Shown here: in pieces, positions 1 to 27,008 of the stretch
Layout: the number at the start of each line of letters is the position of its first letter
How positions within the stretch are numbered: position 1 is the first letter of the stretch
DNA from: Schizochytrium sp. TIO01
Taxonomy: Eukaryota > Sar > Bigyra > Thraustochytrida > Thraustochytriidae
Direction: 5' to 3'
NCBI GenBank assembly: GCA_004764695.1
Contig: SMSO01000033.1
Location: 1,627,001 to 1,691,000 of the forward strand
DNA: 64,000 nucleotides
The notes under the pieces: model-generated
Told to the model about the DNA's origin: nothing
Database searches by the model: none
What the model saw: the letters and a program-made list of their open reading frames with translations, nothing else
Position numbers and translations under genes: made by a program

Positions 1-3000
1 ACCCATACCATGAACACTCACCCAGGTACCACCATCAGTAGGGCCATTGTCAGGAGAGAGCGAAAATATCTGAGGCCCATTCACGTATTGTAAAACCTGG
101 GCTCCATCAGAAAAGTCCACTCCATTATGCGTTACTTCTACAATAACAGGGCCAACTGCATGGGCAGGCGCAGTGCAGCGAATCTCTTTGCTACTTATAT
201 AAAAAGCAGGTACCAGAGCCTCGCTGCCTCCAAATTTGCATGCAAGAGCATCTGTATTCACAAAATAGTGTCCAAGAACCACAATTTCGAAGTTGCCCTC
301 TGTGTATCCGATCTCAGGAGAAAGTCTAGTGACTTCTGGACGACCAACATTCCGAAGGCGGTAAACCGGTGTGTACAGAACCTCTCCAGAGTCACCCTTT
401 GACTGCAGCTGCAAAATCATCTCATTTCCAGGTTGATTAGATAGAGATGGATTAATTTCACATGACAAAACTTTGGAGGCCGCATTTGAAGACAGCTCCA
501 CACAAGATTCACTTGCAGCGCCTTCTAAGTCTAGTAGACTATGGGAAGTGAAAATAGGGGAAACCTCAGCAAGCTCAATTTGAACAACCGTACCATCAAC
601 AAGGTCACTAAGTTCTGGGGTGACCTTGACCACTTTGGGGGCGCGAACATATGAGAAATCAAATCCAGTCTCCACATAATGCTGACCACCATCAAACGAT
701 ACCTGAACTTTTGTAGTTTGTACAGAGTGACCAGGGCTGGGTGGAACAATACAGGCTACTGTTCTAGAAACTTTGTCGAGCACAGCACGAGATGCAGAAT
801 CCCCAATCGAACACATAACTGAAGCTTTTTGTAATGTTGATGCAGAGGCCTCGGAGAGGGTCATATATGTGATAATGCCGCCCTCTACACTTCCTCCTGC
901 TGGTGAAAGGCTACCAATGAATTCAGCTCGCCACCAGCGCAGAAGATTCAAAGAATTGGATAGTTCTTGGCCATTCAATGTCAACTGAACAACCGAATTT
1001 TCGACAGTGACGCTCGATGCAAGGGGTACAGTGCACTCGGCTTCTTCACTGCTTATCATGACTGCCTGTGTAATTGCTGTGCTTCCATCCGGGTCTGTAA
1101 AAACGCATCGCATTGTTTCCATCTCCTGTCTGAAGTGATTACCAAAAAGCTTGATTGTCACTCCACCATCAACGTGAACTATACTCGGAGACGAATTATG
1201 TAAGATAGGATCGCGAATGTAATCAAAACGAGCAATTTCCGTTGTCGTTGCCCCAACAAGAGTGATGTAAGCATAATGAACCCTGTCGTCAGGACGCGCC
1301 GGGACAATGCATTCAAGACGAGTCTCAGTCACCGAAATCGCTTGCACACGTATGGCATCGCTTGCATCACCGCGCATGCGAAACTCGCAAAATTCTGTTT
1401 TGAGAAAGTTTTCTCCAGAGATTGCGAGGACAGTTCCACCCAGAAAGCTGCCAAAAGTAGGAGAGATATTAGATAGAGTTGGCGCTGCTACAACAGTCAG
1501 CTTTAGGGTCTCTGTATTTAATTTGGGTTTGTGGTACTCCACTCCATTTCCTCCACTGAGCTCAATTGCAAGTTCAAATGAATTCTCTTGTGGTCCAAGC
1601 TCACCAAGAGTTGACGGTGTCCGGCAAAGAGCTTCCGTTTCGCTCAGAATTGTTGCAGGGGTCATGACTAAACCACCAAAACGACACCAAATCTCACTAC
1701 CGTTCTCGAAATCCTTCAATGGAAAGAGACTTCCAAATAAAGTAATAGTTTCACCACCAAGGTTCCGCACAATACTGGGGCTCATCTGAATAATTCTCGG
1801 TAAAGGCACATAACGAAAGATAAGGGGTCCATTTACTTCAAGACCAACAAAGTCTTTCTTTCCATTCAAAAGAACGCTTACGATGACATTCTGGGGACTG
1901 TGCTTCGAAAAGTCTGGAGATAAACATTCTAGCAGTGTACTGCTTCTCCGCCTAGCATTCACCAAGTAACTCAAAGTTCCTTGGTTGAATTGGCAATGCA
2001 ACTGTCCAGATGCAGGAAAGCCAGAGCCTCTAATGAGCACAACTGTACCACCATACATCGACCCTGATGTTGGTTGAATTGAACGAATAACTGCCTGCGG
2101 TACTGAGGTGAATATCTGTTCGCTGATAGTCCAAGGACGACCATCCTCAATGCTTGCAAGCCCTACCCAGATTGTTCGATTTGTTAAAAACCGATGATGA
2201 TTTTCATCATCTTCGGCAAAGTCAGGTGTTGAGCAATGTCCTTCACTACCATGGAAATTGAAACTTTGCTGCAGTGTAAAGTGTTTGGCCTCCGACGCGA
2301 CGATGCTGAGCTGGGTTATCACCTGCAATCCAAGAGAAGCTACACACCAGCATGTCATGAAGAAGTCTAGGCACAGGATTATCCAGGGTTAAATTTAATT
2401 CTGTGCCGCCCCTCAACTGTCCAAAAGATGGACTTATGCTGATAAGATCCAATGGCGGGAAAGCCGTAAAGCTAATCTCTTGAGGTGCGTGAGATATATG
2501 AACACCGGCAATGAGAGATGATCGCAATGATACTGATACTTTACGATGCGACGTTGCTTTTTGAAGTGGTATGAATGAAAGAGGACAAATAACTTTGTCT
2601 AAAGTTTCATCCAGTGCTGCTGGAGTTTCTGCCCTAAAGTCATTATCAGCTGTAAATGAGCACATCAAAGCATATCGATGATCTGATGCATATAAAAGTT
2701 CAGAATGAACAATAGAAAGCTCAACAGAGCTCGGTTTCGTAGCATGTGTCGTTATATATCTCGGCTCGACCTCTCGGAGTTCTACCAGGGGCAGAACTTG
2801 AAGCTCTGCATAGTCAAGAACAGAGACGGCATTTGGAGTATTCGAAACTCGAACCAGGTAGACGCGCTCTGATTCGAGCGTTTCGGGTACAGAACAACGG
2901 ACTCTGTGTCTCGAGACAAAACTTGCTTCGGTTGACATAAAAGAGTCGCTATGCTCAGACAAAGGGTCCTCGAAAACGCAAAGCAGAGCTTGGTTGCTAG

Positions 3001-6000
3001 TAGAGCTAACAGAAAAGCCATCTCCTATTACATCAATGGTTGTTCTTCTGTTTGCAAACGTGCTCGATGGTTCAACAGCACGGACTACAGGAACAGAGTA
3101 AAACGTATAGGGTGCACCTCTGGACGTCGATGACCATTGAGCTCCATTGTTATAAGAAACAATAATACTCGTTGAAAGATGTACGTCTCCACTTTTGAGC
3201 TCCACAGCTGGAGCTTCGCAATAGAATCCAAAATCATCTGGCCTTTTCGCTGCAATTTGCGCAAATGGCAATTTCTCGCCAATTTTAACAAATCCACAGT
3301 GAGTAACCTTCTCATGATCAAGAACTCCTGTCATGTATATATGCTCTCCACCTTCGGTAGTCCCTAAGGTGGGATTTGCATTTGCATGAGCTTCGCTTAG
3401 GTCGTCAAAGTAAGTAAAAATCGAACCACTCTGCATTTCACTGTAGACTTTTCCATTCCATGATATTGAGAATTTGACCTCGTCTGACCCTTGCTCAGTG
3501 TTGGCAGAAGCTGGTGTGATACATGCGAGCCGACGGTACGATGGTGTACCTGAAAGCTCTGTTGCTTCAACCAAAGTGTTTCCAAACCTGCATGTGAAAC
3601 CTTGGGGACCATAGTATGCATCCAATATGCCTCCCCACAAGAATTTTACTTCGACCAATGTGCCGCCCGATCGGGGACCTCGCAAAGGCTCCGCGCTCAA
3701 GACACTAAGAGGTTCTGCGATAGAGATTGTATCACAAGCGACATCAGCACCGCCGTTTCCCGAAATGCATACCTCCAAGCTAGCAAGAGAACTCCACAAC
3801 ATCTCTGTGATAGAACCCATCTCACAGCTTGCGACATTATCTGTCTCAAGATATGAGATTGACTCGGTTATCGTATCATGTGTTTCAGGATCACGAAATA
3901 CACATGCCAATGTGTCCATTATTGGGAAGCCCTCTCCTCTTATATGGAATAAGGTGGACTCAGAAAATCGAATCACGTTAAAAGGCTCTATTCCCTCTGG
4001 AGCAATGAGTAGAACAGATTGGTATTGAAAAGATCCTCGGTATAACACATGGCGAGAAATCGTTTCTAGCAAAGTTACGATGACACTCTCACCATCATTT
4101 CCTTCTGGAGTTTGGCATGAAAGCGTAGAACTATCTAATTGGTAAGCGGGGACTTCACTTGCATCGGACCCAAATGTGCACGACCACATTGCAGCCCCGG
4201 CTGACAAAGCAATTCGCATATTCTGAAACTGCAAGACAGTTCCTCCACTGGCAGGTCCAAACTGTGGCTTCATTGTCCCATCAAAAGAATGAGCAACAAA
4301 TGTGAACTTCTGGTCTGGAAAGGTGTAAAAATCCTCCCCATTAAGAGTCACGCCAACAGAAACAGTCTCTTCCTCTTTTGTTGGCCACCCAGGGGATAGA
4401 CACTCTACTTCGACACGACGCAGATCTGAAATTTTTGCTGAAGAACTGAGTATTCGGCCAGGGACAGATGCAGAAGTACCAAATCTACACCTAATCAGCT
4501 CAACAGACTCTTCAGTGTGTTTCAGGTCTGTGTAGAACTCAACACGAACCTTGATTCCACCAAGGGCGCTACCTCGAGATGGTGTTACAGTCTTTGTTCC
4601 AAGTACTCGATAGGGCAGGAAGACAAGGTCTTTGGATTCGCACAATGCTGGTAAAGGTTGTCCTCTAGAGGTGACACCAACTTGAACCGGTGACCCACTA
4701 TTCCCGAATGGTGGAGACAAACACCACAGTTCAGTCGGTGATACATAGTGTGCTTCGGTACTTAAAGGAATTGCGGTAGCTGATCTTGAAAGAGTAAACG
4801 TGCACATCAAGGAATAACTAGGCTTAAAGTCGAAACCCTTAATACGAATGCGCGTTCCACCTTCCCAGGGACCTTTCGGAGTTTGAAGACCTAATAAGTA
4901 AGGTGGTGCAGAGTATGTGAACGAAAGTTCGTTTGAAGAATAATCGACACCTCCATTAGTCGAAATCCTCACTTTCACCTCCGCGGGAGAAAGATCAAAC
5001 GCAGGAGGACTGACGCACGATACCAAAGAGGAAGAAACTGCATTCCCTTTGACAACAATATCACCAAATTTACAGGTAATATTTTCTCCAAAAGGTTGCT
5101 TCCAGATACAAGAGCTTGTACTCCTCCCGTAGCAGGCGCTTCAAATGGAACAATAGACTCGAGCTCCGGGACGTGTCGATACGTGAATTCCCCAACATTG
5201 ACATAGCTCTCTTTGTCCAAAGATACCTTAAGATCAATAACAAATTCTGATTGCTCTTGCGTTGCCCATTTTAAAGCTGGTGCTATGCAAAGAAGTATAC
5301 CATTATCCACCAGCGTTGCCTTCACAAGACCAGCAGAACCGAATTGGCAAACTGCATCCCCAAGCTCTACTCCACTTAGCATACTTCCATAGAGATATAC
5401 TGGGGAGCCACCAAACAAAGGCCCCGACTTCGGTTCAAAGTTATCAATTCCGATACCATCGAGAACTTGGAAGGCAAGTGTTTTAGACGACTGCCGTTGT
5501 GGCACCTCCATGCCCTCTAGAACTAAAGAAAATGAATAAATACCTTGGCTCAAACTTTCTGGAACCTTGCACGAAAGAAGACTGGACGAGTGACGGCGAG
5601 CATCTGAGAAATAATCTGCGATTCCACTCTTAACAAATTTGCATTGAAACATATGATCATTTGAAAGGTCCGTGATATTGGGAAACCCTTCTCCTATAAT
5701 ATGCATAGTACTAGCCCCTGCTTGACTGTTATAAGAGAGAGGCCAAATGTTATGAACGAGAACCTTCTGATGATAAGAGAAGTGAAACTCCGATAGAGTT
5801 TGGTCTTCGTGTAGTAAAAGGCGGACAACTATGTCATCTGCGTAGCTCATTTTTGATCTCGACGGAGTGGTGCACATCCACACATTTGTTTCATTGGTGC
5901 TAGCCTTGGATACAGCTCCGTAGGACTTTACGTTTGCATGAAGGGCTTGAAACTCACATTTAAGAGTTTTTAATTCATCTTCCAAAGACTCTAAATCAAG

Positions 6001-9000
6001 TGTATTATCCCAGAGGAGTGAAAATCGAATGGAAGTTCCACCGCGAGCAGGACCTGCCCTGGGAATAATATTCTGAACCTCTATTGGTGGCACGTACGTA
6101 AACTCTCCAACACCGATGGCGTCCACTCCGTTTGTTGACAAGCGTATGTTGACTTTACCAGTACTAACAGCAGCTGGAGTTAAACATGTAACAGAATTGG
6201 GACTAAGCCAAGTCGCAGGAACTGCAATGTAACCGAACTCACAACGCAAGAGAGGTGAACGAGGGATGTTTGTACCAAAAATAGAAACTGCAGTACTGCC
6301 AGATTTCCACCCAAAAGATGGCGCAAAGCCTGCAATGGTCGTGACAGGATGAAACACAAAAGGCCATGGAAGAGATCCCGAGAAGTCAACTCCATTGCGA
6401 GAAATACTGATCAGAGCTGAGCCAGGCTGACTTACTCTGGGAGACTCACAGTGAATCTGAGACTCACTTACAAAATTTCCCTGAACAGAGTAACGGTCTC
6501 CACCTGGAAATTCAAAACGACAGACCAGTAGATCTCTAGAGCTGAAATGGTAACCTGAAACCACAATTGGTGTTCCACCAAATGTAGACCCTGAATTAGG
6601 CGTCAGAGAATCGAGTATGAGATCGTCCTGATAAGTAAAAGGTATATATCCGGACGCGGAGGATGGTTGGTCGCCGTATACAATTTGAATGCCTACCTCG
6701 GTAGTTTCCAAAACTTGAGAATCTGTAATACGAAGTTGCTCCAAGGGTGGTGCTATACATATAATCTCTCGCGAGGAAATTACTGTTGCGGGTTCCCGGA
6801 CTCTCAATTCGCCAAAAATGCACGCGGCATTTAAAGGAGAAGTTTCGGTGTCACTAAGAGAATTGAACGTACCTAGAATTCGAATTGGCGTTCCTCCTGA
6901 TTTGGGGCCTATTGTTGGTTCAGCGCGAGATACCACTACAGGGGCTAATAACTGGAAAGGAAAGCTCTCCGCACTGACCCCAAAGTTACCCTGAAGTCTA
7001 ACCTTCACCATGCGTGAAGTGCCAGGTGGCAGCTCAGATGGCCAAAGTGGGCTCTCACACTCTGCCGTACCATGACTTAGAACAGATGCACTTGTATGAA
7101 CCTGCAACTGCTGATCCTGACTTGACCAAACACACAAAAGTTCATCATCGGTGGCAAACCCGGCACCATAGACTGTTACAGAGGCGCCGCCGAGACTTAG
7201 AGCGATGCTAGGAGACACTCCCAATAGTCGAGGAGCAGGAAGAACCTCTAGAACCAGCGTAGTTGTCCCATCCATGGATGAAATAAGTCTATGTTCAAGA
7301 CCTTCCAGAACCACTTCTACTGATACAATGCCCGGTGTCGTCAAGTTGATTGTGTCGCAAACGATTAGCTCTGACGACTTTACAATGGCTCTCGACTGCC
7401 ATTTCTTTCGCATGCTAGCCTCGTCAAGCACTGTAAAAAGGCAATTGTACGTAGAATTGAATCGGAAACCTTGGCCTTCAAATTTGAGAGAATTCTGCAA
7501 TCCAGGTTGGATGAAACGTTTATCCATGGTGCTTGTGAGAATCGGAGCCAGAAATACGGCAGTGTTAGCCGAAACTTCTGTAAGCGCATGCCCAGGGAAA
7601 TTTGGGGAAAACGAAAGTGTTGCATGCATAGAATGATGAAAGTCTATTCGATTCCTCATTATTGAACCGCTGCAACGAACTACGTGTGGCTGTGAGAGAG
7701 AAACATTAAGTAGAATGGGTACTTGACCACTACTTCCAAAAGTGATTGCGCAGACTGGAGCTACCATTCGTAGGGCTTGACTCTTTTTCAAGACAATATT
7801 GAAGTCAAAGAGACCCGTTTTTGGATCTACTATTATGTTGCTAGGTTTAATGCTATCAACGGCAAATCTCTCAACAACAGTGAGATTGGTTGAAGTATAA
7901 ACGTAGTTTTCACCATTGATTGCAATTCCCACAGGAAATGTGTCTCCAGGGCGCGCCTCTAGCAGAGCGGGAAGGTGGCATTTGATAGCTGTAGCCGAGA
8001 GAAATGATGCGGCAATGTTGTAGCCTTGGACACGGCACATTAGAGTCGTGGCTGGCAGAAATCCTGAGCCGTGCACAACTATGTCTTCGACTAAAACTCC
8101 AGAAATCTGCGACGGAATCAAAGCTCCTAGCCGAGGTTCGGCATACACATCAAGGTGCCCAACCTCAATGCGGTAGAGAGGAGAATCATGTTGCAGTGTT
8201 ACGCTCAGACGCTGAGCTTGGAATTCTTGTTCAGATACAGCCTTTGGAACAGCGCATTTGATTTCACTTTCTGACACAACGACTGCTGCACTCTTTTGTT
8301 TTCGGTCACTAAAGATGCATGTATAAGATTTTGAAAGCATAAATCCTTGACCAACGATTCGTAGTACCGCTTCGCCATCTTGCGGAACCATTGTAGGTTC
8401 AAAGTATTCAGTGACGCCGAATGATGACCATGCTTCTACAGGAACTTGTACGTCAATCCATTGTAAGCCATCGTTGAGGGAAATCCGAATGTATTCAGAA
8501 GGAATCTCGGGAAGGGCGCACACAAGCAGATTTCCAAAGTCCAGATTTACCACAGCAAGATGATTTTCTCGGCTGTCTTTACATCGGATGGAGTAAGATG
8601 TCAAGTCATCAGCAAGTTCAGTGTTAATTATAAACACACCGCAACGCCCATGAAGAACGCAGTCCGAGACCTCTTGAAAAGAGATCGTAGGAGCTCTCTC
8701 TAGCACAAAATAAAGCTCGGAGTTAGAAATTTGGCTTTCACCTGGCCGATCCGTTACCCTTATCGACACAGTTTTATGTCCCGCTCCCGAAGAAAATAAA
8801 CCCGACGATAGTGGGCATAAAAGTGTACTGTTGTTAACAAAAGAGGCATTTTGCACTTGTTCGATATCGTTGTCATAAAGACAAAAAAGTTGTAAGTTTG
8901 CAGGAAAGTTTTTGCCGTATATTTTCAAAAATGAAAGAGGGGCGCCTAATCCTGCAAAAATCATTGCAGATTCTACTTCAACTATTTCCCAGTAAGGGAC

Positions 9001-12000
9001 AAGTTCAATTGAAACAGAGCTTTGTGAAAAGCTCTGACCCTCATCGATCGAGACGCAAATTTTTACATTGCTCCATGCACCAAAATAGTCATGAATACCC
9101 TCCGGTAACCAGCATATTGCCTGAGAAGCACTCAGAGTGTGCCCAGGTGAAACCAAAGCATATGTTGCATTCTCATGACACGAAAAGCAGTCTCTCAAAA
9201 ACTTGCATTGCAAAGAACCAGAGCTAAAACCAGACCCCGACAGTTCGATTACGTTTGAAGATACCGTAGGGGAATAAGGCAGCACTGAAGTTGTCGACTG
9301 TTCCACAAAAGGTGCTTGCCGAAAGGTGAAAGTTCCAAGAGCAACTACATCTACCCCATGTTGCAGAACACGAAGAGTTGATATTGTAGGTCCTTTTTGC
9401 TGGGGTGTGATACATGTGAGTCGCATTCCATCTTCAGAAAGTGTGTGCACAATTCCAAATTTAGTTTGACCTTGTGAGTTTATAAATTGGCATTCGATGG
9501 TGGACTTCGAAGATTTGATGGGCGAAGCAAGTGTCACTGTAACCAGCGTGCCTCCAAGGATAGGACCCGATTTCGGAATGAGCTCAGTAGTGTTAGCGTT
9601 TGAATGACTGTAGTCACTCAGGCTTCGACGCCTAAATCGAAGATGAAATGGGAGGGATTCAACTTGTACATCTGCACGAGAACCAAACAGCAGATGTAAT
9701 GTCACATTTTCATTCCGGAAGTCCATCTCTAGTGCAGATGGGACCACACAAGCAACTATGTGTTTGTCAATAACCATGGCCGAAGTTTGTACCATACCAA
9801 AGTCACAGTTAACCGGAATCTTAAGAGGCAGCATAGATACATGAAGGTTAACCAATTGACCAGGTTCAGGTATTTCAGGATCAGTACGCAAGATTGAGAC
9901 ATCTCCAATCGCTTGAATACTGACGAAGGCGATCTCGTTTTGATCGCCATATTTCTGAGAGATTATAACATCTTGTAGATTGTCATCGGGCCACTGGTTA
10001 ATGTCGTTTCGTACATAAAGGCGTGCAAGGTTGATCTCAGCCTCTTGATAGCCCAAGAATGGGATAAACCCAGGGATTTCACATGACACCATAGAATTAG
10101 AATGGTACAATACACGCCTTGATTTTATACACGATGAAAGCTTAGCATCGCAAATTGCACACCCCAAATCTATGGTGGAAGAAAACCCTGCACCCGATAC
10201 TCGCACAAGAGTTGCTCTAGTCGCTGAGATAGTCTTTGTTTGTGGGTTTGCGACAATAGCTTGGGGGGCCCTGTAGACTTGCAATTCCTGCCCATGGTCC
10301 CAAAATACTGTTGCACTATCCCGTTCAGTCTCGCCGATCTGTAGAGATACTGCATTGAGATCACTGCACTTAGCTGAGCTACACATGGGGACTTCACAAA
10401 CAATGTCCCATGTTTTATTCACCAAACCCTCTTTAGAGGATTTTGCGCAAACTCCTTTACCTTCTCCAACTTTTGCAAAAAAGGGCGTTTCCAGGGAAAT
10501 TAGTTTGTCGAACTGTGTTACACATGCCTCTACGAGTTTCAGTCGTAGTGTGAAAGGTGAGTAGGGGTCTGCCCATGCTGGAGCTGCGTCGACAACGACT
10601 GGATTACTAACAGCCTCAAAGAAGAGTGGACCTTCCGAACGAACCCATGATGACTCTCCTGATGGTGATTCACTGCGGACACGGATGTAGAATGCACCAA
10701 GTGAGTGAAACGCCGGGGATCTGCATTCTAAATGATGAGAATCTTGCCAGAATGCAGATGTGCTTGCAACTCGGTTCTGCCCTTCAACCGAATAAAAATC
10801 ACAGGTGTACAGAAACTCCACGAATAGGTTACGACCACTGATGAGAATGTGAGTCCCCCCACTTTGAAATCCAATAGATGGTTCATTGGAAACAATGGCC
10901 AACTCTGGAATAACACTAACTATTGCAAACGACTCGGTGAGATCAGCAAAGTTCGACGTCACGCGAACTTCAAACATTGTCTCATTTTCGTAAAGAAGAA
11001 GATCAGATGGCACTGGACAGTGCAAAACACTAGAAGAGATGACCACGGCTTGTGATGGGATCCCATCTACCAAGTTATTGTGCTCTTCAGATGCTTTAAA
11101 CCACATGCAATGCGTATGATCAACACCATCAACAAGAAAGTCTGCTCCGTTCATCGTGATTGTCGCCGCATTCTCTTTTTCAGAGGACATAACTTGCACA
11201 ATAGATGGCTCCACAGAGAAGATTTGCGGTTGTGCAACAAAATGAAATACTGCAATGCTCGATGAAGGTGTTTGTACAAGAAGATCATGCGCAGAGTTTT
11301 CGCGAAGTAAACGAATACTCAGGTAAACATCTTGTTCTTGATCAACTGTGGGTGTTTGACATACTATGCCATTATCAAGTACGTCGGTAGCTTCCACGTG
11401 AACTTCATCTGAATTTTCAAAGGTATAGATACAAGCAAAATTAGATGGGCTTGGAAAGGACCTTACGAGCTCTGAAGATGCAAGGAAAAGATTGACCAAG
11501 GTTCCACCAGACAACGAACCTGATGCTGGGTCGATTCCGGTAATTTGAAATGGGTGTGCAGCTGGCCTGACAACGACATTAAGATCCACAAAGGATTCCG
11601 GCGTTGTAAACGTGGAGAGTTCAACTTTCATTTCAGTTGAAGAGTCAACAAGCAAAGGAAGTGGGCATAATACAACACCCTCGCTTTGGTCAATATTAGC
11701 TGAACTCACCTCTTGTCCATTAAACCTGCAACGGAGGGCTATCGGAACTTGTAAGTCAACAAGAGTCTCTACAAGAGCCAAAGATGCATCAGTCAGAGTG
11801 AGGATGAGCTCTGAACTGGAGCTATAATCACTCCATGCCGTTTGCGTGGATACCAAACCTTGTTCCACCACTGAAAGTACAGACTCTGGCAGCATAGCAA
11901 TACGTACAGACTTTGTTGAATAATCCACACCGTTGTAGGATACGTCAAGATATACAAAGTCTTCACTAGCAGACCAGGTAGTACTATCGAGGGCAGCTTG

Positions 12001-15000
12001 AATTGATGCGACTCCAGGAAATGGGCAAGTAATCATTCCTGGAGCTGGACCAAAAAATCCTGTTTCAACCTGAAGAAAGTCGACTGGAGCACCTATGCTC
12101 TCATCCTCAAAGATGACCCTCTTGTAGAATCTATAACGACAATGTGGAACAATTGGTATATTCCAAGCTCCTCTATTTAATCTCAACTCTGTCTCGAGCA
12201 TTACTTGAATTGATTGTGATATGTCGGACGACATGCTTACAATATGAGTTACTTCTGTCCCAGTCTCATCTCGACTAACAACTTGAGGGGGCTTTGCGAA
12301 TGAGACAGGAAAGCCCTGTCGCTCGTCAAGCAACTTGCCAAGTTCTCCAGAAGAAACTTCATGCTGTGTAGCGAGATATAATGCGCATCCAGTTTTGAGG
12401 GCACCAGATTCTCGAAACTTCAAAGGTAAACTAGGGGACATACATTTACCAGTGTAAGATAAATTTGAAGCACCAAGGGTGAGTTCATCGCACTTGAAGA
12501 CACACTGCCAAGACAAAGTCTCCGTGTCCGGTAAAACTGTCGAAAATCCTACTGTTAATTCTGTACCTTCCTCTGAGAGGCATGAGGATGGGACTGATTC
12601 AACAATAGCAGGAAGTTCAGAAATTGATATGTCAATCGATGGGAAGTTTTCGAGTGGCTCCAAGTCATTAGCGCAGATGCGTAACCTAGCTACATTACCT
12701 AAATCGCCAATGACCTGCCATGACTCAGGCATTTCACACAGAACTGTTGTTTCGTTTATAAAAAAAGCTTCCGTAAATGCAGGCGTAGCACCGGTCAAAT
12801 AGCAGTATTGCGCACTTGCAGAAGTAAACTTATCTCCCTGCAATACCAACGTTTGTGGAGAAAGAACTTTTCCTGTGTGATCTACAATAATTTGCGGAGG
12901 CATTGTGGTAGACAAATTTGCTGATTCAATAGTCTGCATTCCGGTAAGGATCGGGAGAGAAAAATCAGCGCCGTTATTAGTACTAACTTCAACTGTGAGA
13001 CCAGCAAGGACTTCCGAGAAAAAGTTGGCAAGATCTGGTGTGATACAAACGAGCCTACGACGACCATCGATGTGAGCTATATATCCCAGGGTGTTGCCTA
13101 AGATAGTATTTTGATCACTAGCAAAACGACAAATGGGTGACGCATCAAGGGCTTCGAATCCATATCCATCCAGTATTACTGGCGCACCACCATAAGAGGA
13201 GATAAAGCTGGGTGCACTTGCTGTAACAAGCCTCAAAGGAGTGACAAAAGAGAATTGCGAGGCGATGACGACTTCTCCTGTTACCTTATCTTGTACTTGT
13301 ACTACGGCTTGTTGGGGATAAGTTTGGTTCAGGTATACGCTTTCTACATTGGGAGTGAGGCAGGCAACACTTGAGTTTTCAACCCACGCCAGAGCTTGAA
13401 TAGGAGACTCTCCAGGATTTGTGAATTCGAACGAACATACTAATGATCGGTCTGGATCGACGTCGTTAGAAATCGGAATGTTCAGCTTAGTTCCTCCTGA
13501 CAAAGGACCTGAGAGAGGAGTTCCAATTGGTAACGCATTTGAAGGCGCTGGCACTACCACGAGTTTGAAAGAAGAGTCAATACTAGTGCTGCTAGCATGA
13601 AAAGAAAGAGAAATACTATATTGCCCTGGCGTAAAAAGATATGCTGGTACTTCACACGAAAGTTCTTCTTCTGAAATGAATTTCGCACGTGTATAAAGCA
13701 AGTTAGGTCCAAAGACGCAAGACATTTCCACTGCAGGTACAAAGCCAAAACCAAAAAGTCGAAGATCGTTGCTTTCTCCAGCACGAATGTTCAACGGCTT
13801 CACACTAGTCAGAGTCATTGGGGCATGGATATACACAGGCGTTAAAGAGGGTGAAGAAACCTCATCCGCACTGTTACTGACCATTACTTCAAGACTATCG
13901 TACTTCTTCTCATCCGAAAGGGGCGCAATTGAAATCGGCTCGCAGAGTACCGATCTACCATCAGATGAGATGATACCAACTACCTTTCCTGCCACATCTC
14001 CAAAATGACAAGATAAGGAAGGCGAGCTAACTAAACCATTCGCATGAATGCGAAAACTAATTGCTGAAGTGCCAGCTGGTATGGCGGAAGGTGTGACCCT
14101 GAAGATCTCCGGTCGGGGTGCATAATTAAATTTGACTGTGCCGTACTGTCCTTGGTCTTGCTCCCAAAATGCAACGCGAAGTATTGCCACACCCTGAACA
14201 CCATGATTAGGAGTTACACAAGTCAGGTGGGTGCCATTAAGAACCTGTGCAGGCCTCGACACTTCAGAAAAACTAGCATGAGATGCGGTGCTTTGGAAAA
14301 TACATCTGGGAGCAAACACTTGCAGAGTTGACAAGTACAGGTCAAAGCCTTTGCCATCAATCGTAATTACAGTTCCTCCATAGATATCGCCAAAACGAGG
14401 CACCACATGAAGAAGACGAACATCGGAGATACCCTCTGCAGCAGCTGATGTTCCACTTGCTTTTACAACTCGAACAAATGGGGCTGTTTCTAAGGGACTA
14501 AAGTCAACACCATTGAGAGAAATTCTCACGGCAGTTTCCTCAACAACATTACCAGTGCTTATGAGTCTGTTATATATATGTCTAGGCATGTTGCACTCCA
14601 ATGTCTGTGCCTGTTCGTCAACAGTAGCTTCACTTGTTGCTATAATTGGATCTCCAAAACCGCACTGCATTGTTTCAGAAAACAGAAGATTGGAACCACG
14701 CACAAGCAGAGATGTACCTTCCGTTACGATCGAGGGCTCGACAGATTCTGCTCGGGGCGAACGTTCTAAAATCTGAATCGGTAGCCCTGTTGAAAGGGCT
14801 TCCTCTGTGTGAACAGTAAGCAGAATTGATCTCCACCATCCAGACATATTCTCCGAGATGCTGGACTCAAATTGAGTAAGTGAACACCCAATCACATCTA
14901 CACCTGGTTGAATATGAACCGGGACGTCTACAACTCTAGATCCTTCGTTTTGAAAGAACCTGCAAAAAATAGAATCAGAGCCAGACTCTGCAAAAACTTT

Positions 15001-18000
15001 CCACAGTGCCATCGATGAGGATGATGTAATAAATGTAATGAACTTTGTCATACCCAACACCACAGTTGATGGTTTGGCGCTCTCCAATACAAGCGTAGGA
15101 ATATAACGAAAGAATGGAGTTGCAGAAAGAAAATCCCGGCCATTCAACGAGACCTCAATCGGTATGAGCTCAACGCCTTCCGTATCTTGCGGCAACAAAG
15201 CTAATGATGGCATTTCACAAGCAAGAACATTTTGCTCGACAAGAGTTACTTTGACTCTTACACCACTCACGGAGCATGCAAGATGGTCGGCAAACTGATA
15301 GAGATTTGCTGATGACTCCAAATACACCAAAGATCCACCTAAAGATGGCCCAAAGGAAGGCTCAATAAGAGAAAATAATGACAAGGGAAGAATTCTCACA
15401 TTGTGCGACGTACTATTAACAGCTCCCTGTACGAGACGGCCAGATTCTGTCCAAAGACCGACTTCCAACTCCAAAACCTCAAGGTCTTGAATCGCTGAAA
15501 GAGGAGAGTTGTGATTCGGAACGGAGCATGTCAACTCGTTATTGCTAATGATGGTTGCACGAGAAGTGATGTGGGATGTCCAAGACTGTCCTACAAAACG
15601 AAAAACGCAGGCTTCAACATTCCCGTCAAGGAATCCGTGTCCGTTGACCGAAAGTTGATACCCGGGCCACAAAATTCGAGGATTTACTGAACTCAGCTCA
15701 AGAACAGCTTCAACGTACGTAAATAAACAAACAGTAGCATCCTTGGTGTTACAAGTCCATTGTTTGCCATTATTAAACGAAACGAGGACTGGGACAGCAA
15801 TATTTTGATCATACGCAGGAGAAACGCACTCCAAGGTATGATCTGAAATTAAACGAGCTTGGACAATTTTCTGACCAAATGCACACAAGAGATTGGTACT
15901 GGAAAAGTGTGCACCATTCAAGTGGAATCCCTGAAGTAAGACTTTCTCTCCACCTTCTTGTGTCCCCTTTATATGACTTAAACGTACAATGTGCGGGCGC
16001 TCGATCACACGAAAGAAGGGTCTTTGACCTGCCAGAAGCGAAACCTCATCTCCATTGTTCGAAACATACTGAAGGTCAATAGAACCCGAAGACTTTGTAG
16101 GCAATTGCTCGAATGGTAGACAAACAACTGTGGTTTCAAGGTTCTCTCCTATGTGCACACTTGCTGTACTTATTCCAAGTACTTGGCCTTGAAGATCTAA
16201 GAACTTACATGCAAGCTTTGCCTGAACAGATGGATCGAGTGCACCAATGCTTTCTACTCCTTCCCATGTAATTTTTAAAGAACCACTTTCATCATCTACC
16301 CACCATATGTTAGGCGAAAAATGAGCTGAATCCAAAGAGCGTGTAATCCGTGGGCCTAGGTGAATAGGAGAAAATGTTTCACCTTCGTCAATAGACAGTC
16401 TTAAGCAGAGACGGTCGCTGCCAAGGGTTGCATTATCCAATTTGCCATATAATGATTGTGGAACGTGGCAGTTGATCTGATTTGAGCTAGAGATTTTCCG
16501 CGTAAACTGATGCAGTGATGCTGGTTTTCTCCGTAGAAATCTCACATAAAATCCTTGAGGCATTGCTTGTTAAGAGTAGGGGGGGACTAAGCTCTACATG
16601 AAGAACAGAAAGTTTCGTATTTTCTCCCGTTTCAGCAAACATAATTATATCCGGCTGCACGTCTGAAATCAATGGTTGTGCAACAAAGTCAATCGTACAA
16701 TGACCTACGCACTGATCATTTGGAAGGTCTGAAATATCTTCATTTCGATGTAACACGTAGACATGCATTGTTGACATCGCAGTTCTGATGACAGGTGTAA
16801 CACACTCAACGAGAGAATGGCCAACTAAGTAAGCATCCTCGAGAAATGTCAATTGCGAGTCAGAATCAAAGAAGACACAAGAAAGAGAGACGCTATCCAC
16901 AGCGTTTTCGACATTCACCCTGATCAGGCTCCCTCCATTAACGAGCACGACACTAGGACTTACATCAAAAACACGGAGAGGAAAATGCAAGCTGAACAAT
17001 AATCCAGTGTCGACAAAGTCAATCTCATTCACTGCCACATAAATTGGAAGTGTTCCAGGGAAGAAACTTTGGGCTGGGTACCCACAAAGGAGTTCTGAGG
17101 TGGTCTCGTTGAAACCAAGTGTGGGTACAATATTCTCGGGCTGGGAAGGACTTCCGAAGCTACATCGAGCATTTGCCCAATCCTGCGTTACACCACTTAC
17201 AACAAGCCGTATGGCATGACTGCTTTCTTCTCCGATAAATCCATGATGAGGATTCACAGCATAAAAGTAAGGATTCGTCTCCCCAATTTCAACTTGAAAG
17301 CCAGAATCAACCCAGTGCTCCTGATCCACTGAGAGGAAAATGCCCAGTGACGAAAATTCCAGGAAGGAAGTCACAAGTGGAACACTGCATGCAATGCGAT
17401 CGCTGTCAAGCGGCATTGCAGTTTCATATACAAAACTACTATTGTTGCCGAATCCACATGACAAGGCTCTCACGTTGCCTAAGGCAGGACCAAAAATCTC
17501 AACAATAGATTTACCCAGCTGAACCACTGCCGGTGAAACAGCTGTTACGCTAGGTTCTCTAACGAACGTGACAGATAGAGGTTCCAATGTAGCCGAATCG
17601 GAGATAGAGACGAGAACGGATTGCTCGTACACGAGCTCTTCAACGATAGACCATGCTGGAACTACACATTGAACGGCATGCTCGCTGAGCCATGTAAACT
17701 GCGTCGCTACGACCTGCTTACCCTTGGTAAATGTACAAGTAATATTGCTAAAGTTTTCCTTTGTCTGAAGGTGCCTATTGAAGTTGACTCCGTGAAGTGT
17801 GATATGTCTTTCGTCTGCGATGGTGCTTTTCGAAGCATAGATCACATTTGGTTCAGCATATAAGAGTAGCGGAGCAGCACGGAAGAAAACGCTGGACGTT
17901 GAGGTAGAACCAAGAATGTTTTCCTCCCCATTCAAAGAAACTGTGACTGTAGCAGTTGCTTCGTACGATCTAGTTGGGGAAGGGCAGATCACCCATACTT

Positions 18001-19102
18001 CTGTCAGATCATCTGAGACAGACAAAGTGCCTATCATTCGTACAGTTTCCCTTTCGAAATGAAATGAGCACCACGAAGAATCAGCCAGAAGCAGAGAAAT
18101 TTCATCCACTGTAAAAGCGTTGGAAGAATAATCACCTTCCTTTGAGATGCTGATGTTGATAGGTATTGATGCGTCAATAGTAACTTGAGCTGGCGTTACG
18201 TCCAGAATGTGTAAGCTTGATGTGTAAACGAAGTCGTAGGTTGCAACCGTATGGTTGCGATACAGAATATTTAGTTCGACAACACCTTCATAATCCACAG
18301 ATGGTACCAGACAAGATGCGAGCGACGGCGATTCAACGAACATGGTCATGTGGGTTCGTTCGGCACCAAAAGAGCACACAAGGTCATTTTTAGCAGTGAG
18401 CAAATTAGATCCCGTAAGAAATATCGTGTATCCACCAGTTGCGGAGCCCCACAATCCTTTTGAAGGTTGGTTGAAAACAGGATCTTCCTCAACAATTAGG
18501 TTATGTACCTCAGGAAAGGATTGCGTTCGGCCTACAGTGAGAGTGACACTGATCTCACCAGGCCCTGAAAGCACACCAGCTGGTGTTGGGCATGTTGCTA
18601 ATGTAGATGATCTTGCAAGCGCTGAAGTATACGTCTGCGTACCGCTTACGTTGAAGAAACACTCCATATCATTGGCGTTGAGTAGGAAATTCTCGCCATG
18701 TAGGTAAAGTAGATCATTGCCGTCTAGACCGATATGGGTTGGGTGGACCCCTTGAACTTTGATTGCTGCATATGTAATCAGAGGAATTGCATTTGTCCAA
18801 CGATTTAAATTGTTGGTAAGACGAAGCAGGACAGCACCTTCTCGAGACATTCCGGGACTAGTTAGCGTATCGCACAAGAGCTCGTCGCTTTCAGGCGAAA
18901 AGCGAAGATCTGAAAGAAAGAGATTTTGACCAAACTGGCAGAACCAGCCAGTTTCTCTAACCATATCGCCATTTTGCAAACTTTGTGCATGCTGCTCTCG
19001 AAGAGTTACAAGCAAAAGGGGGGCATGTATACTAAGGACAGAGGGTGTAGATATCTCAAAACAGACTTTGCGTGGTGTCACGTGCTCCAGCGTGGGCGCG
19101 TC
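1..19102 (-). repeat. IPT/TIG domain array of the giant protein
   Basis: About 6,370 residues consist almost wholly of IPT/TIG units. The repeated pattern is P..G...GGT.(V/I).(I/L).G..F, then (L/M).C.F(G), then (L/I).C..P. At roughly 95 residues per unit this is on the order of 60-70 units, an estimate from length and not a count. The protein repeats are strongly diverged and I saw no DNA-level tandem identity, so the array is old. The glycine pair is replaced or lost in some units. Confidence 0.8.
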
Positions 19103-21836
19103 AACACTGTCACTATCAAACATAATATCCAGATAGCGGGTTGAGGCATAGTCGTCAGCGATGTCGCCATCTATTGAAAGCTTAACATCATCCCCACCTT
19201 GAAAGGAGTTTGTACGACTGTAGACTAGATCTGATAGGCCTGCGTTAATATCACGCAATGATCCTGTAAAGGTCATATTAGATTCATTTTCACCTGATCC
19301 ATTGATGAATGTTAAGCCAATAGCGCTGCCTAAGGAAAGTGTTGCTTGACCACTCGAAACGAGAAGATTGACAGTATAAATTTGCGTATCATCCTGTGTA
19401 GAACTGCTCAGGTCCATATCTGAAATTGCATATCCACGCAGCCGAAGGGCCGATGCTTCTGGAAGTACTACTGTTGGGGCATCATTGACAGGGAGCACAT
19501 CAATAGGAATTATAACACGATCTGTAAGGTTTGTTTGCGGGGAGGCCTCAGTATTTGCAGAACCTAGGCCTAAATCATTAACTAGTATGACCAGATTTTC
19601 TTCTGAGATTCTACCGTTAGAGTTTTCGTCACCAAGATAGATAATCCTTCGTACTGCATGATTAAGGGCACCAAGAGTGCCAAGTACAGTAATCGTGCGG
19701 TCATTTAATCCTGACCCAGTGATAAACTGCAAATCATTTGTGCTAGCAAGACTTATAGTACCTGCGGAAACAGAGAGGGAAACCTGGTATAGGGGTTCTT
19801 GACCATTGCTATGAATTGATCTCCAATGGTCCATGTCTACGTCATGTATAGTGACACCATAAATTGCAACAGCCTCGTCTTCGTCTGTGACTTGATCGTT
19901 TGGCATGGACAGGGATGGGGGATCATTCACAGGGTTGACATAAAGATTGATAGTCCTTGAGGCAACCTTAGGACCGTCGACACTAAGTCCTGCATTGCCT
20001 TGATCATTGACTGTGACTGTAATGTTATCATAGCCATTCCAGTTGAGAAGTCCAATGTACGAGAAACTTGAAAGAGCATCATTCACAGATTCAAGATCAC
20101 CTGAAAAAGTGACAATCTCATCTCTGTCTCCTGTACCCATGGCAAACGCAAGTTTGTTGCGCACATCTTCATCTAAGGTAATCATACCATTGAACGTTTC
20201 GACGGTAACCGAGAAAATTGAATCAGGGCTAAGTTCCACATCTTTGTCGGCGATTCGAAATCCAGTAATTCGACGTGCCCCATCTTCCTGCAGCTGTAAT
20301 GTAACGTTGTCTCCTTGCTCGACAAGAAGGATCTGAGTTTCTTGATCTGCAGGTTCATAGTATACCTCTGGAGCCTGATTGAAGGCATGGTAAATAGTGA
20401 TAAGAGCAGGTCCTCCACCGAAGCCGTTAAGCAGTTCCTGAGCAGTTTGCCATGCAATATTGTCGCCCCCTTCTTGTCTCCACTGAAGCTTTATGACATG
20501 GGTTCCTGGTGAAAGATTAAGCATTACAGAGCCACGCATAGTTTCAGTAGTGCGAACAAGTGTATCCATAGATGAGCCTTTACCATAAATAACTTGACCA
20601 TTTACCACTAGACGCAATGATAATGCGCTCCAGCGCTCCCAGGTCCAATAGTCCATGTCAGGACGGCCCAATTGAGAAGTAGTCAACGCAAAGCTCACGT
20701 GAACAGTATTAGTATTTGCTACAAGGTTTAAAACATTCACCGCGTTAGGAATATCGAACCATCCGTCTGCGTTAGTGGATGCAGATTGAAGAGCAATTTT
20801 AGTTTTGTCAAGCGTGGCTTTGGAGTTTGTTCTGCTCATAATTACGGCTGTGTGCTCGCCTTCGATGATGAGACTGCGCCCTGAGATGAACCCTCCAAAC
20901 ATTGATGGTTGGGAGAACCAAACAGGTACAGTTGTTCCCCATTTACGCCACTGCAAAGTTACGGTGTGCTTTCCAGCAGCTAATGGTAATAAGAGATCCC
21001 CCGTTAGTACTGAGGAACGATATGTGCGTGACACTGTTCTAAAGACAGAGCCAGATTCACGATATGGAACCCCATCAATAACAAGACGAGTTCCAAGAAT
21101 ATCTGCCTTGCTCAAGACATCTGCATTTGGTGCAGATTGAGGACGGACTTGGAATGGAGTATAGTAAGTGCATCGTCCATTGCCGTGGAAGCGCAAAACT
21201 AAGAGTGCAGTCAGGAACATCAACCCAATCTGCGCTGGAGCTGGAAATTCGAGCTCCGGTTAATGGTTGAGCAGTATAGAAATACTTGTGACGTGCTTTT
21301 ACCATGATACTTCGTGTGCCACCCTGGCCAAGAAGGAGTTGAGGCCGAATAGACCAACTTCGTACGCGATTTCCCCAGCGCCGCCATTGCAAGGTAGCCG
21401 TGTGGTTCCCTGCAGGTAAGCTGGCAATGGCATGGCCGAGAAGGTTTGTTCGTCCTTGTTCAAATGAACTAAGTGGACCTGTATGCGAGCCTGATTGTCT
21501 AAAGGGGACACCATCAATGACAAGACGCATTCCAAGCAAGTCGTCTCCCTCCGACCACCCCAAAGGGTCTGCTCCTGGTTCATAAGCTTTGTCTGCTAGC
21601 ACTGTTGCGGTGTATGTTACTCGAACAGTATATCCCTTATCGAGGACAAAGGTGACGCTTGTATTCGCAACGTCGAACCATGTACCCCCGTCTTCTGCAT
21701 TCAGGATAGCGCTGCTTGTAGGCTCCACGCTCCACAGCAGACCATTATCAAGACTTCCAGCTCCTCGAGCCAAAACAATAAGATACGCTAGGAGAAGGAC
21801 AACCATAGACCCAAATGACTGCCCCCACGAGTCCAT
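1..21836 (-). CDS. Giant secreted/surface IPT/TIG-repeat protein, 3' end outside window
   Basis: The reading frame runs about 7,280 codons and leaves the left edge still open (last visible residues SPDNGPTDGGTWVSVHGMG). I chose the ATG at 21836 because MDSWGQSFGSMVVLLLAYLI is a clear signal peptide; the frame is open a further 130 codons upstream. Order: signal peptide; three related sandwich repeats; a cadherin-like stretch; then dozens of IPT/TIG domains showing P..G...GGT.V.I.G..F, C.FG and C..P with spaced cysteines. IPT/TIG domains are immunoglobulin-like folds, common in plexins, MET and fibrocystin (PKHD1) relatives, so a fibrocystin-like adhesion or receptor role is possible; diagnostic G8 or PbH1 domains would lie off-window. 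No membrane span is seen after the signal. Single-base frame breaks occur near 21148-21160, 16487-16497, 5082-5085 and 2250-2262. No GT-AG intron fits any of them, since adjacent frames overlap by only a few dozen to 149 bases and the expected domain length is kept. Confidence 0.85.
19111..20326 (-). other. Cadherin-like/CSPG-like segment of the giant protein
   Basis: Three consecutive segments carry the marks of cadherin-like or CSPG-type repeats: ITVTVNDQGN, VNPVNDPPSLSMPNDQVTDE, IDVLPVNDAPTVVLP and DEDEAV motifs, with F.GSGLNDRTITVLG-type inner strands. VNDxPP and DxD motifs commonly bind calcium at repeat junctions. The segment sits between the sandwich repeats and the IPT/TIG array. Confidence 0.65.
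20380..21686 (-). other. Three tandem N-terminal sandwich-like repeats of the giant protein
   Basis: Three units of about 140 residues share a pattern. Each starts with W(F/V)D(V/I), continues with (L/M)RLV(I/V)(D/N)G and G.(S/G)S, and ends with L(P/A/S).G.H...LQWR. Examples are DDLLGMRLVIDGVPF, ADILGTRLVIDGVPY and ALSLRLVVNGQVIY. The spacing from WxD to the DG/NG is 52-57 residues in all three, which locates the frame break in the second copy. I do not recognise a named family with certainty; a PA14-like or jelly-roll ligand-binding fold is the nearest guess. Confidence 0.6.
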
Positions 21837-23035
21837 ATTTGCACGTGCTCGAGTTCTCTGCTGGCGTCTACACAGGGTAGCTCCTGTAGTAAGCCCTGTC
21901 TTGACATTTTTGTATCTTTGGTGGTGTTTTTGGCATTCTCTGATGTGTTTTGAGGCCTCTAATTTGTTCTTGAGTCCTAGTTCTTCAGATGCATAAGTGG
22001 CACTTAATGAGATACCAGCAATACATTGCCTCAGACCTCTTCGGCCGGTATTGGGGTCGTCTCTACGCGTGACCTCAGAGGCAAGTGTTGGTCTAGCCAC
22101 TTCCATTGCCACAGTCTTCATTTTATTGCATTTATGTGTCATCTTCTCTGCCTCGGACCACCTTGAGCTCCGACCGGTGGCGTTCCCGTTTCCTAATTCC
22201 ACATGCGCATTCGACTGTTGGAGCATTGCAAGTACCCAAGTCCTGCAGATCGAAGGTGCTCGAGACTCCGCTGAGAAATCCAGCGAGCGTAGGCGTTCTT
22301 CAGACGCTCTTGGCGTCTCTGCCTCTTGTCAATCAAGACGCGAGTTTCAAATTTCAACCAAAAACGTTGATTGACTGATGATTTTCTGATGTCTCGCTTT
22401 GGAAATGGAAAAGAAAAAAAAAAGAATGAAAGAAAACACTTGTCTTTCAATACCATGTTCCCCGTATTACCTCTCACTACCTCCCTTTAAATTATTTTTC
22501 CCCGTGTTCCCCATATCGTCCCAGTGAACGCAGCCTAACGGAAGCGCTGGCTTATTTTTGGGGGCAATCTGGCGCCGTACTTAATTTGGACTCTTTGTTT
22601 ATTTTCAGACGGGAAGTATTTTATTTGCGGCGAGTAAAAGAAAGCGAAAGATACATTGAATCGTTTAATTCTATGTTGGACATGGAGAAGGGAAAACAAA
22701 GCTCGAACCGAGTGGAGGTCGCTGCGCTGCTTGGACTGGCCTAGCTCGCTCTCCACGGCGCACTAGCTATTAGAGTGTTTCCTCAGCTAGCGAAACGACT
22801 GGGTTCTTGTAGCGTCTCGGTCCCACCGTTGGGGAGTTCGTTGAGGTTTGCCTCTTCGCACTTGCAAAGACGGGAGCGAGCGACTAAGACAAACAAACGA
22901 GAACCTTTAACAATAAAGGGGCCATCTCCAGGAGAGTTCGAATTGTGAACCCACCTCGAGGGTACCTGCTGTGCTAAAGCGGCTAGCCAGACACTCATTG
23001 AACCACGTATACGGTGAAGGCGAAATTCATAGAGG
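21837..23035. promoter_or_regulatory. Divergent intergenic region between the giant gene and the RMC1-like gene
   Basis: About 1.2 kb separates two head-to-head starts, so promoters for both genes should lie here. The first 390 bases are open in the frame of the giant gene but encode an arginine- and lysine-rich, low-quality sequence, probably 5' UTR. I see no tRNA, repeat or clear TATA box. Confidence 0.4.
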
Positions 23036-26000
23036 ATGAGCGTTGAGGTCGCAAAAGAAATCGCAGGACCGGGTTCTGGACGGGGATGGCTAGAGCTGTC
23101 TAAAAGAGCAATCAATGTTGATTTTTCAGGGCATAAAGTTTGGTATGACAATGCCAATGAACAGCTTGTTTTGATGAAGAAAAACGTGTATTATACTTTG
23201 CCTCTCAACTATGGCGCCAGACTTTCGCCTCCTCTCAACTTTGTTCATGCTGGACCCGTTCTCGATGTTAAATTCTCACTTTGCAAACGATTTATGGCTA
23301 TTCAACGGAATGATACAACTATAGAGGTTGTAGATCTCCTACTTGCTACAGAAACTCGCATCACATGTCGCCCTAAGCGAGGTAATCTCGTGCTTCGTGG
23401 TGGGGTGTTCTGGTTGCAACGAGACTCTCAGGGTAACAATACTGGGTCAAGCAGCATGTCTCTTGGTAGTGGAGGTTCCACAGGCGGAACTAAGTTCTTC
23501 GACTCGGAAGACCTACCGACATTGTGCATTGTTGCACGTTGTGGATTAGAGGTCCATAGACTGCCAAACACTGAACGCGGAGAGGAAACATGTAAACTGG
23601 TTGGCACAATCAAGCATGCAGTTCACTGCTTTTGGTATATAGCAGACCAACAGTTGGTTCTGCTTGCAACTGGGACTGGTACTGAGTTGAGACCTTATCA
23701 GTTCCAAAACGGACATTTGCCCATAAAACTTGCCAAGTTTAGCGTGGCAAAGGTTCTTTCACATCGAGATATGCTCGTGACGAAGCTGTATGGGAGCATA
23801 TATGCGATCGAGGTAGTGCAGTCCACACGGAAATTGCAGTTGTATAGACTCGGCAGAGAGACTTCTGCATTAGTTCGTGAGCTGGACCTTACATTAAGAG
23901 GAAGCGTGTACTTGAGTATTGTCGATAATTTAATTTGTGTCCATAACATGGAGGGAAAGTTTACTTGCATATATGATATACAAGCGGACACTAATCTCCC
24001 TTGTATTGTCCCTAAGAGCTTGCATTGCGCCTGGCAAGACCCTGCGAAGGAGTTGAGTCGTGCAAGTGCCACAAAACCGACATCTTTTGACATCGTTTTG
24101 CACGAGGGCGAGTCGATTGGCTTGGAGCCGATTGATCCACACAGTGCGCAAAATTCACATGAAAGAGAGAGTCTACACCAGAAAGATCAGCAGCAGGGTC
24201 AAGACGAGTTAACGGAGAACAAATTATGTCAACCAAAGGATGAGCTGAAATCCAAACCGTTTTGGTCTGCACGCCTTACCCAAATGTCTCTCTATGACAC
24301 ATATGAGAGCGAGGTCTTGGTTGGTAGTGCTCTGACACATCTCAATGACATGCCTCTTGATGGGAAAGCTTTTGAATACGTGCTAGATAGTATCGATGAG
24401 GCTGACCGTCCTGTGCGATTGCGTTTCGCCAGTACAACATCTTCAGCATCTTCGGGGGGTGCTTCACAAGAGAAAGGGGAATCAGAAGAAGAATCGGCCC
24501 CTCCTACCATTGCGCCACCTACTGATGATAACTTTCTGTATAGTACAAGTTGGGTTTTCTTGGCACCGCATTGGGTCCTAGACTCCAAGCTAGGGCATGT
24601 CTGGCGGTTGGAGCTCAATCTGGACTTTGTTCCACGGGAGGTTTTGCGCATTGCGCGCAAAGATATATCTTCGGTGAATGCAAACACAACAACAGAGATC
24701 GCTGAACCATCTTTTATTTTACAAGACCCTCGACGTCTTGTGAATTTTTTGGTTCACCGTGCTTGCCCCCCGCCAGTGAGTTCAGTTACTGAGTTTACGT
24801 TTGGGAATGCTCGGCGAGATTCGCATGCCTACTGTAAGGCTGTCCTGTTGCATTGTCTACGATCACTACTTGCTTCAAAGAACACTACCCCAGATGTGCT
24901 ACTGATGATCTTCAATCATATTAACGCAGTGTATTTACGAGCCTTGCGTGAACGCGCTGCAACATCCTCGCATGCTTCGCCAACGAGCTCAAGTAGCTTT
25001 AAAATGCGAGGAAGCGCTGCTTCAGCAGCGGCCGCGGCAGCAGCAGCAGCAGCGGCAGCAGTCTCCATAGGATCATCATCTTCACTAGCCTCGACTTCAA
25101 TCTCATCTACAGGCCGCACGCTTCGCTCGAGCTCCCTAAATGCAGGAACGCAAAGCCAGCAAGGTTCAGACTCATATAACGATTCCTTCCGTAGATCTTC
25201 ATCCAGCTCGAGCCTTACAAACATTTTTTCTTCAAACAAATCATCATCGTCATTCAGTGCTGCAGCTGCAACCCAAAATCGCAGAGGAGAAATTTATCTT
25301 CCTGCTTTCTCCGTGCCTGATGGACTTATTAGTGGAGCGTTAGGCGGGTCTAATGCGCAAGGCTCAAGTGAAAGTTGCGCAAATGACAGTAGGTCGTTTC
25401 GGCTTTCCAAGGCATCAACATCCATGCGAACTCGGTTCACCTCCAGCATTAAGTCCAAGCACAAAAGAACTGGCATTGTTGATACAGTAGCCCGGCTAGC
25501 AAGGTCTTCTAGTGGTGCAGATCTTGTTCAGGCGCCTAGCGCTTCGGCGCGTGACGAGCTTGAGGAAGGCCGCAACGTACTTTCATCGCCTCGTACCGAG
25601 GACCTCCACGGCCAAACAAGTCCAGGCTCGCCATGTCAAAATCTTCCAGAGAGTCCAAGTCGGCGCCGTCGTCTCCAGCAGCAAAAACAGCAAGACCAAG
25701 AAGATAGACTAAGCTACCAAAACTTGAACGAGAGCGCTTTGAGTGGTGACGAAGAAGATTCTCAGGATACAAAGAATTTAGTAGGTGGAAGTCAGCTGTC
25801 GCCAGTTTCTGTGTCTTCGTCTGAGTCTCAGCGTGTACTAATGCAACTCATGTCTGACTTTCGCGCTGCCGGGCGGGTGGCCCTGAAGGATATCAGATGT
25901 TATAATGGTGCGACCGTTATTTTACAGATTGACATCTTCACATGGGTTTTCATGCCATTAATGCCTGATACTGCCGATAACGAGGAAGGTTTTGATGCAT

Positions 26001-26635: not shown

Positions 26636-27008
26636 ACAATGTCATACTTAATTTTTGTTTGTGTAATCGATATGATCTTCAACTCTTTTAGAACGACTTG
26701 AAAGGAACGATTTCTTTGTATTGCAACCTGTATTTCGGATTCTAGATTTTGCTCTAGAGATAATAAGACTAAGAAGATGTCTTTCCAAAGAAGTGATCAT
26801 GGGAATATTTCATGAAAGGGTGCTGATAGAATAATCTAAAACAAGTATGGCTTTTACAAGCACGATTCTCTAATTGTGAAATACCATCTATATATTTTTA
26901 TACGGGTAGTCAAATACTTGCTTGTTGTTTAATTTTGCTATGTGGGAAAGTTGTATAGAGGGATAAAGGAGACAGAACCTTTGTGTGTTTGTGACAAGAA
27001 TCGAGAAA
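26636..27008. other. Convergent 3' spacer between RMC1-like gene and SPT5
   Basis: 373 bases of AT-rich sequence shared by two gene ends. They presumably hold both 3' UTRs and polyadenylation signals. I see no gene or repeat. Confidence 0.4.

Follow-up and report, generated by a model that had tools for sequence, protein, structure and literature searches.

In polycystin-1 and the adhesion GPCRs, a multi-span anchor bears a long ectodomain that is built from Ig-like and other adhesive modules. In the CRMPs, a cysteine-rich (ephrin-receptor-like) ectodomain is joined to several C-terminal spans and a cytosolic C-terminus; these proteins function in the exocytosis of rhoptries or mucocysts (PMC9670195, PMC9815656) and have been proposed as contact sensors (PMC9670195). 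Among long IPT/TIG proteins, PKHD1L1 is a coat protein with 13 IPT domains in 4249 residues (PMC6707252). In the literature we found no giant TIG proteins of labyrinthulomycetes. Here, we describe a giant TIG gene of Schizochytrium sp. TIO01 located in a 64,000-nucleotide stretch (the window), which corresponds to C32:1627001-1691000 in an assembly of 64.06 Mb and 37 contigs. We read its product as a lectin-headed, long-stalked polytopic adhesion or contact receptor of the cell surface, and assign this reading a probability of about 0.55.

All features of the giant gene lie on the minus strand, and positions given without a contig are those of the window. The gene occupies positions 1..21836 (codons 1 to about 7281, according to the ORF list, the translation and the flanking DNA) and runs on to C32:1618639. 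A plausible translation start is the ATG at 21836, and residues 1-29 (21750..21836) form a hydrophobic segment like a signal peptide, with a hydropathy peak of 2.09 at residues 11-29. From about 22.3 kb down to position 1, the successive stop-free frames measure 417, 1590, 3864, 964 and at least 796 codons; when the window was shuffled 20 times, the longest frame reached 224 codons. The earlier note had read a single gene of more than 21.8 kb, apparently without introns, that ran off the window. It was right about one gene without a supported intron, but this is not one open frame, as the window contains four breaks and the adjoining sequence one more. The flanking DNA confirmed the overrun and located the C-terminus, with the stop at C32:1618639-1618641, 8.4 kb outside the window. 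The whole gene measures about 30.2 kb and its protein about 10,068 residues (with the five breaks joined by X), 7,281 of which are coded inside the window. At the level of sequence, the domain order, the continuity as one intronless gene and the existence of a paralog that shares the C-terminal half are established. Proteins of greater size than this one are known. The dynein heavy chains of this genome are commonly encoded in single-exon frames of 4,000-5,000 codons and, consequently, the missing introns are ordinary for it. The description of the gene as unusual has to be tempered for this reason, and also because it has company in the genome, namely a larger paralog and two more giants with TIG, cadherin and cysteine repeats.

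The proposed order of signal peptide, sandwich repeats, cadherin-like repeats and a very long IPT/TIG array was borne out, as the sandwich repeats, three in number, come after a signal-peptide-like start and lead on to cadherin-like sequence (Cadherin_4) and then to the long TIG array. The three N-terminal repeats can be aligned with one another. Repeat 1 (21285..21758) aligns with the other two and takes its fold assignment from the repeat 3 model, while repeat 2 (20849..21284) is cut by the first frame break, its second half being aligned and its first half read from the other frame. For repeat 3 (20375..20836), an AlphaFold2 model (pLDDT 58, pTM 0.58) was compared with known structures using Foldseek and VIA-align. 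Foldseek matched TNF/C1q-type jelly rolls, with 4-1BBL as the best (E 1.3e-4), and the best VIA-align match was the TNF-like lectin PLTL (9ib7; Z 10.9, 2.8 Å over 120 residues), the N-domain lectin of BC2L-C (2wq4) scoring Z 10.8. The structure prediction that had been suggested for the repeat units thus yielded a jelly-roll match for the repeat modeled, at modest confidence. With the same modest confidence, the "sandwich repeats" are predicted to be three tandem TNF/C1q-type jelly rolls, nearest to bacterial TNF-like lectins. The predicted fold is what they have in common with the TNF-like lectins (Photorhabdus PLTL and the BC2L-C N-domain) and with TNF/C1q domains (Z of about 11); in contrast to the TNF-like lectins, the giant protein carries three copies in a row on a single chain, at its tip, and identity to them is 11-16%. 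TNF-like domains form trimers, and sugar binding is not a property of all TNF/C1q-like folds. As three copies stand in a row here, the predicted trio perhaps folds as a trimer within its single chain. The head is followed by a cadherin-like or tandem-95-like section (19733..20380), which matches Cadherin_4 above the curated cut-off (E 5.3e-6) and tand_rpt_95 only below that model's cut-off (E 4e-4).

The TIG array (1..18757) makes up the stalk. Its units were counted with the Pfam TIG model and a local HMM seeded from the Pfam matches and then iterated, which gave 56 units in the protein, 51 of them wholly inside the window and the first at 18757. This is far above the limit of about 20 IPT/TIG units set beforehand. 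Furthermore, matches to PF01833 exceed the curated cut-off throughout the stalk (one translated segment reached E 1.3e-82 in 16 stretches), in agreement with the view of a giant IPT/TIG surface protein of a protist. The units are separated by gaps of about 100-320 residues, most of them with weak traces of more TIG, and these gaps probably hold further diverged units. The statement that known long IPT proteins have far fewer units also stands, since PKHD1L1 has 13 (PMC6707252) against 56 here.

Near the membrane, four Ephrin_rec_like (GCC2/GCC3) stretches score above the curated Pfam cut-off (E 1.5e-10), and one more TIG sits between these cysteine-rich repeats and the membrane module. Hydropathy gives 11 hydrophobic peaks at residues 9146-9693, from which we predict a module of about 11-12 spans. 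A GPI signal or a single transmembrane span had been suggested for the C-terminus; the multi-span cluster found there fits neither, and the protein would be neither secreted nor GPI-anchored. Beyond the last span, about 370 further residues form a tail that contains an acidic patch, a C-x2-C pair as a possible zinc site, and a short motif present three times, LSxASxxIxxxWLxxA (in its fuller form FGPVxLSxASxAIxxxWLxxAxxR). The membrane module and the tail had no match in Pfam, NCBIfam or PDB sequences, and the module had no relative in the viral and prokaryotic contigs scanned. As neither has a relative of known function in those three collections, signaling or channel activity is without support from homology.

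The only other copy of this membrane module (module A) in the genome is at C30:463.8-467.0 kb, within a paralog at C30:431.6-468.06 kb. This paralog is a single exon with two frame breaks and codes for Laminin_G_3 domains near the start, 61 TIG units, a cysteine-rich neck, the membrane module and a tail. The two proteins are collinear over about 2,800 C-terminal residues, with an identity of 32% in the last TIG units and the cysteine-rich part and of 27% (BLAST) or 36% (alignment) in the membrane module and tail; the tail motif, the C-x2-C pair and the acidic patch are retained. The paralog differs from the giant in its length (12,161 residues), its Laminin_G_3 head, also of lectin type, and an extra repeat of about 90 residues. 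This repeat has no Pfam name, and it occupies residues ~6345-6700 and 7390-8830 with the pattern F.L.F...T..L.F.ASA.EL..AL..L..I.V.RS....NGG..W.ITF....GDL. Two further giants, C34a and C34b, lie at C34:628.9-642.1 kb and C34:3999.2-4013.0 kb; of their frames, one runs to 4,611 and the other to 4,400 codons. Both have cadherins and TIG as well as cysteine repeats, and one of them also a C-type lectin domain. Their anchor is a different multi-span module (module B) arranged as in CRMPs, and one of them has a weak match to Pfam TRP (PF06011; E 0.025). By hhalign, with very shallow alignments, modules A and B showed no relation.

In the receptor reading, the signal peptide would make about 9,100 residues extracellular, and the tip of three jelly rolls would there bind a ligand, probably a sugar. 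An Ig-like unit is about 4 nm long. At that length per unit, a stalk of at least 56 TIG units would provide an estimated reach of roughly 0.2 micrometre if extended. The predicted 11-12 spans would anchor the protein and could relay contact or force to the putatively cytosolic tail of about 370 residues, which may tie the protein to the cell interior or signal to it, and the whole could serve in surface attachment or settlement. Support for this reading comes from the signal-like start and the hydrophobic cluster at the other end of the protein, from the above-cut-off domain matches (TIG, Cadherin_4, Ephrin_rec_like), from the fit of the predicted head to TNF-like lectins and from the comparable layout of the CRMPs as proposed contact sensors (PMC9670195). 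The retention of the tail motifs in the paralog argues for an intracellular role. Additionally, the head is swapped and the anchor kept between the giant and its paralog, which fits receptors of differing specificity, and the two C34 giants, with their cadherin, TIG and cysteine repeats and one C-type lectin domain on a multi-span anchor, favor the receptor reading as well. In a fuller and more speculative version, to which we give only limited credence, a TNF-like lectin, trimeric within a single chain, would sit on a TIG stalk of about 0.2 micrometre borne by a new class of polytopic module; contact with or a pull on sugars would lead to settlement or ectoplasmic-net formation, and the giants with other heads would represent other specificities.

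It is important to consider what else such a protein could do. A passive structural adhesin or surface coat, that is, a long anchored tether holding scales, wall or substrate without signaling, would account for a protein made up mostly of a repetitive TIG stalk, and coat proteins are known among comparable giant TIG proteins, for example PKHD1L1 (PMC6707252). However, a tether needs neither an anchor of 11-12 spans nor tail motifs shared with a paralog, and we find this explanation possible but doubtful. The predicted layout also resembles that of the CRMPs, exocytosis factors of rhoptries or mucocysts (PMC9670195, PMC9815656), and on such a reading the protein would be a trigger of regulated secretion: contact at the tip would permit release, at the bothrosome for example, or the discharge of adhesive material during settlement. 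With TgCRMPa/b and the Tetrahymena CRMPs it shares large size and an adhesive, ephrin-receptor-like ectodomain, and it would also share a signal peptide, a multi-span C-terminal module (predicted here from hydropathy) and a cytosolic C-terminus, whereas an array of more than 50 TIG units and a TNF-like head are undescribed in CRMPs, which have 9 spans rather than about 11-12. Moreover, profile comparison shows no relation between module A and the CRMP-like one in the C34 giants, which are better CRMP candidates. We therefore regard a secretory trigger of this type as unlikely and use the CRMPs as a working analogy only, drawn by layout from their descriptions, without claiming membership. The resemblance to polycystin-1 and the adhesion GPCRs is likewise one of design only, as GPS/GAIN, PLAT, REJ, 7TM and PKD_channel domains are absent from the giant protein at Pfam E values up to 1. 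Finally, a coat protein of the cilium (flagellum) of zoospores, akin to fibrocystin and PKHD1L1, would also be very large, mostly extracellular and rich in IPT/TIG units. The kinship with fibrocystin named in the earlier note was nevertheless rejected: PKHD1L1 has G8 and PbH1 domains, one span and an 8-residue tail (PMC6707252), whereas no segment of the giant protein matched G8 or PbH1 in Pfam at E up to 1, and its anchor is multi-span and its tail long. Membership in that family is contradicted, and we consider a ciliary coat protein of that kind highly improbable.

A last alternative to the receptor reading concerns the gene itself, as its frame breaks might be real and the locus a pseudogene or several genes. 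Three-frame reading places one-base shifts at 21160..21172 (about 21166), 16482..16494 (about 16488), 5077..5092 (about 5083, in the opposite direction) and 2250..2268 (about 2256), and a fifth lies outside the window at about C32:1623.1 kb. Decay would agree with the density of breaks, since there are five in 30 kb against two in 36.5 kb of the C30 paralog and none in 27 kb of C34a and C34b. On the other hand, more than 10,000 codons between the breaks are free of in-frame stops, every break is of one base, and the paralog keeps an identical domain order in its C-terminal half. TIG units also continue across three breaks, those at 16488, 5083 and 2256, as seen in the scores of the TIG model: the unit across 5083 scores 65.0 bits when joined and 47.3 and 10.4 bits in its parts, and the other two score 37.6 bits against 27.0 and 3.1 and 19.2 bits against 12.9 and 7.3. 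For control, the assembly has a dynein heavy chain (C34:2192976-2193949) with a similar one-base break in its conserved AAA region, and thus the assembly seems to contain residual indels. The five breaks are most likely such assembly indels and decay is quite unlikely, although they leave the intactness of this copy in some doubt. Introns at the breaks were rejected, because at all five the protein resumes directly in another frame after a sequence too short for an intron, the three TIG units align across without loss, and at two breaks no GT-AG pair offers a good donor; frame-bridging GT-AG pairs do occur at all five, which is what chance would give. Programmed frameshifting was also rejected, since there is no obvious common motif, the shifts go in both directions and only one break falls at a stop codon. 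Gene predictors faced with five broken frames may have cut the giant gene apart.

Thraustochytrids settle and attach by means of an ectoplasmic network, and giant, putatively lectin-headed surface proteins provide concrete candidate genes for its molecular basis. A proteomic study of the thraustochytrid ectoplasmic network listed 18 untested candidates, and its main text does not mention TIG proteins (PMC12221091). Gene replacement works in the thraustochytrid A. limacinum (PMC10016063). On the receptor reading, a design of lectin-like head, Ig-like stalk, cysteine-rich neck and multi-span anchor, known from alveolate contact sensors, would occur in a stramenopile with a different membrane module. 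The labyrinthulomycete source suggested earlier is supported by the genome itself, in which a single frame of 1345 codons fuses CrtI, CrtB and lycopene cyclase parts, a combination typical of thraustochytrids and 1329 residues long in A. limacinum (PMC10016063).

Some minor observations concern the surroundings of the gene and the dynein heavy chains. The neighbors of the giant gene at 23033-29957 and 56781-60182 are ordinary ones, RMC1, SPT5 and a tubulin-tyrosine ligase family protein, each in a single long frame. A dynein heavy chain match at C35:2220327-2221308, with four internal stops and a frame change, is possibly a pseudogene, and another dynein heavy chain, in a frame of 4266 codons, contains a TIG match (C32:2355740 and 2358692).
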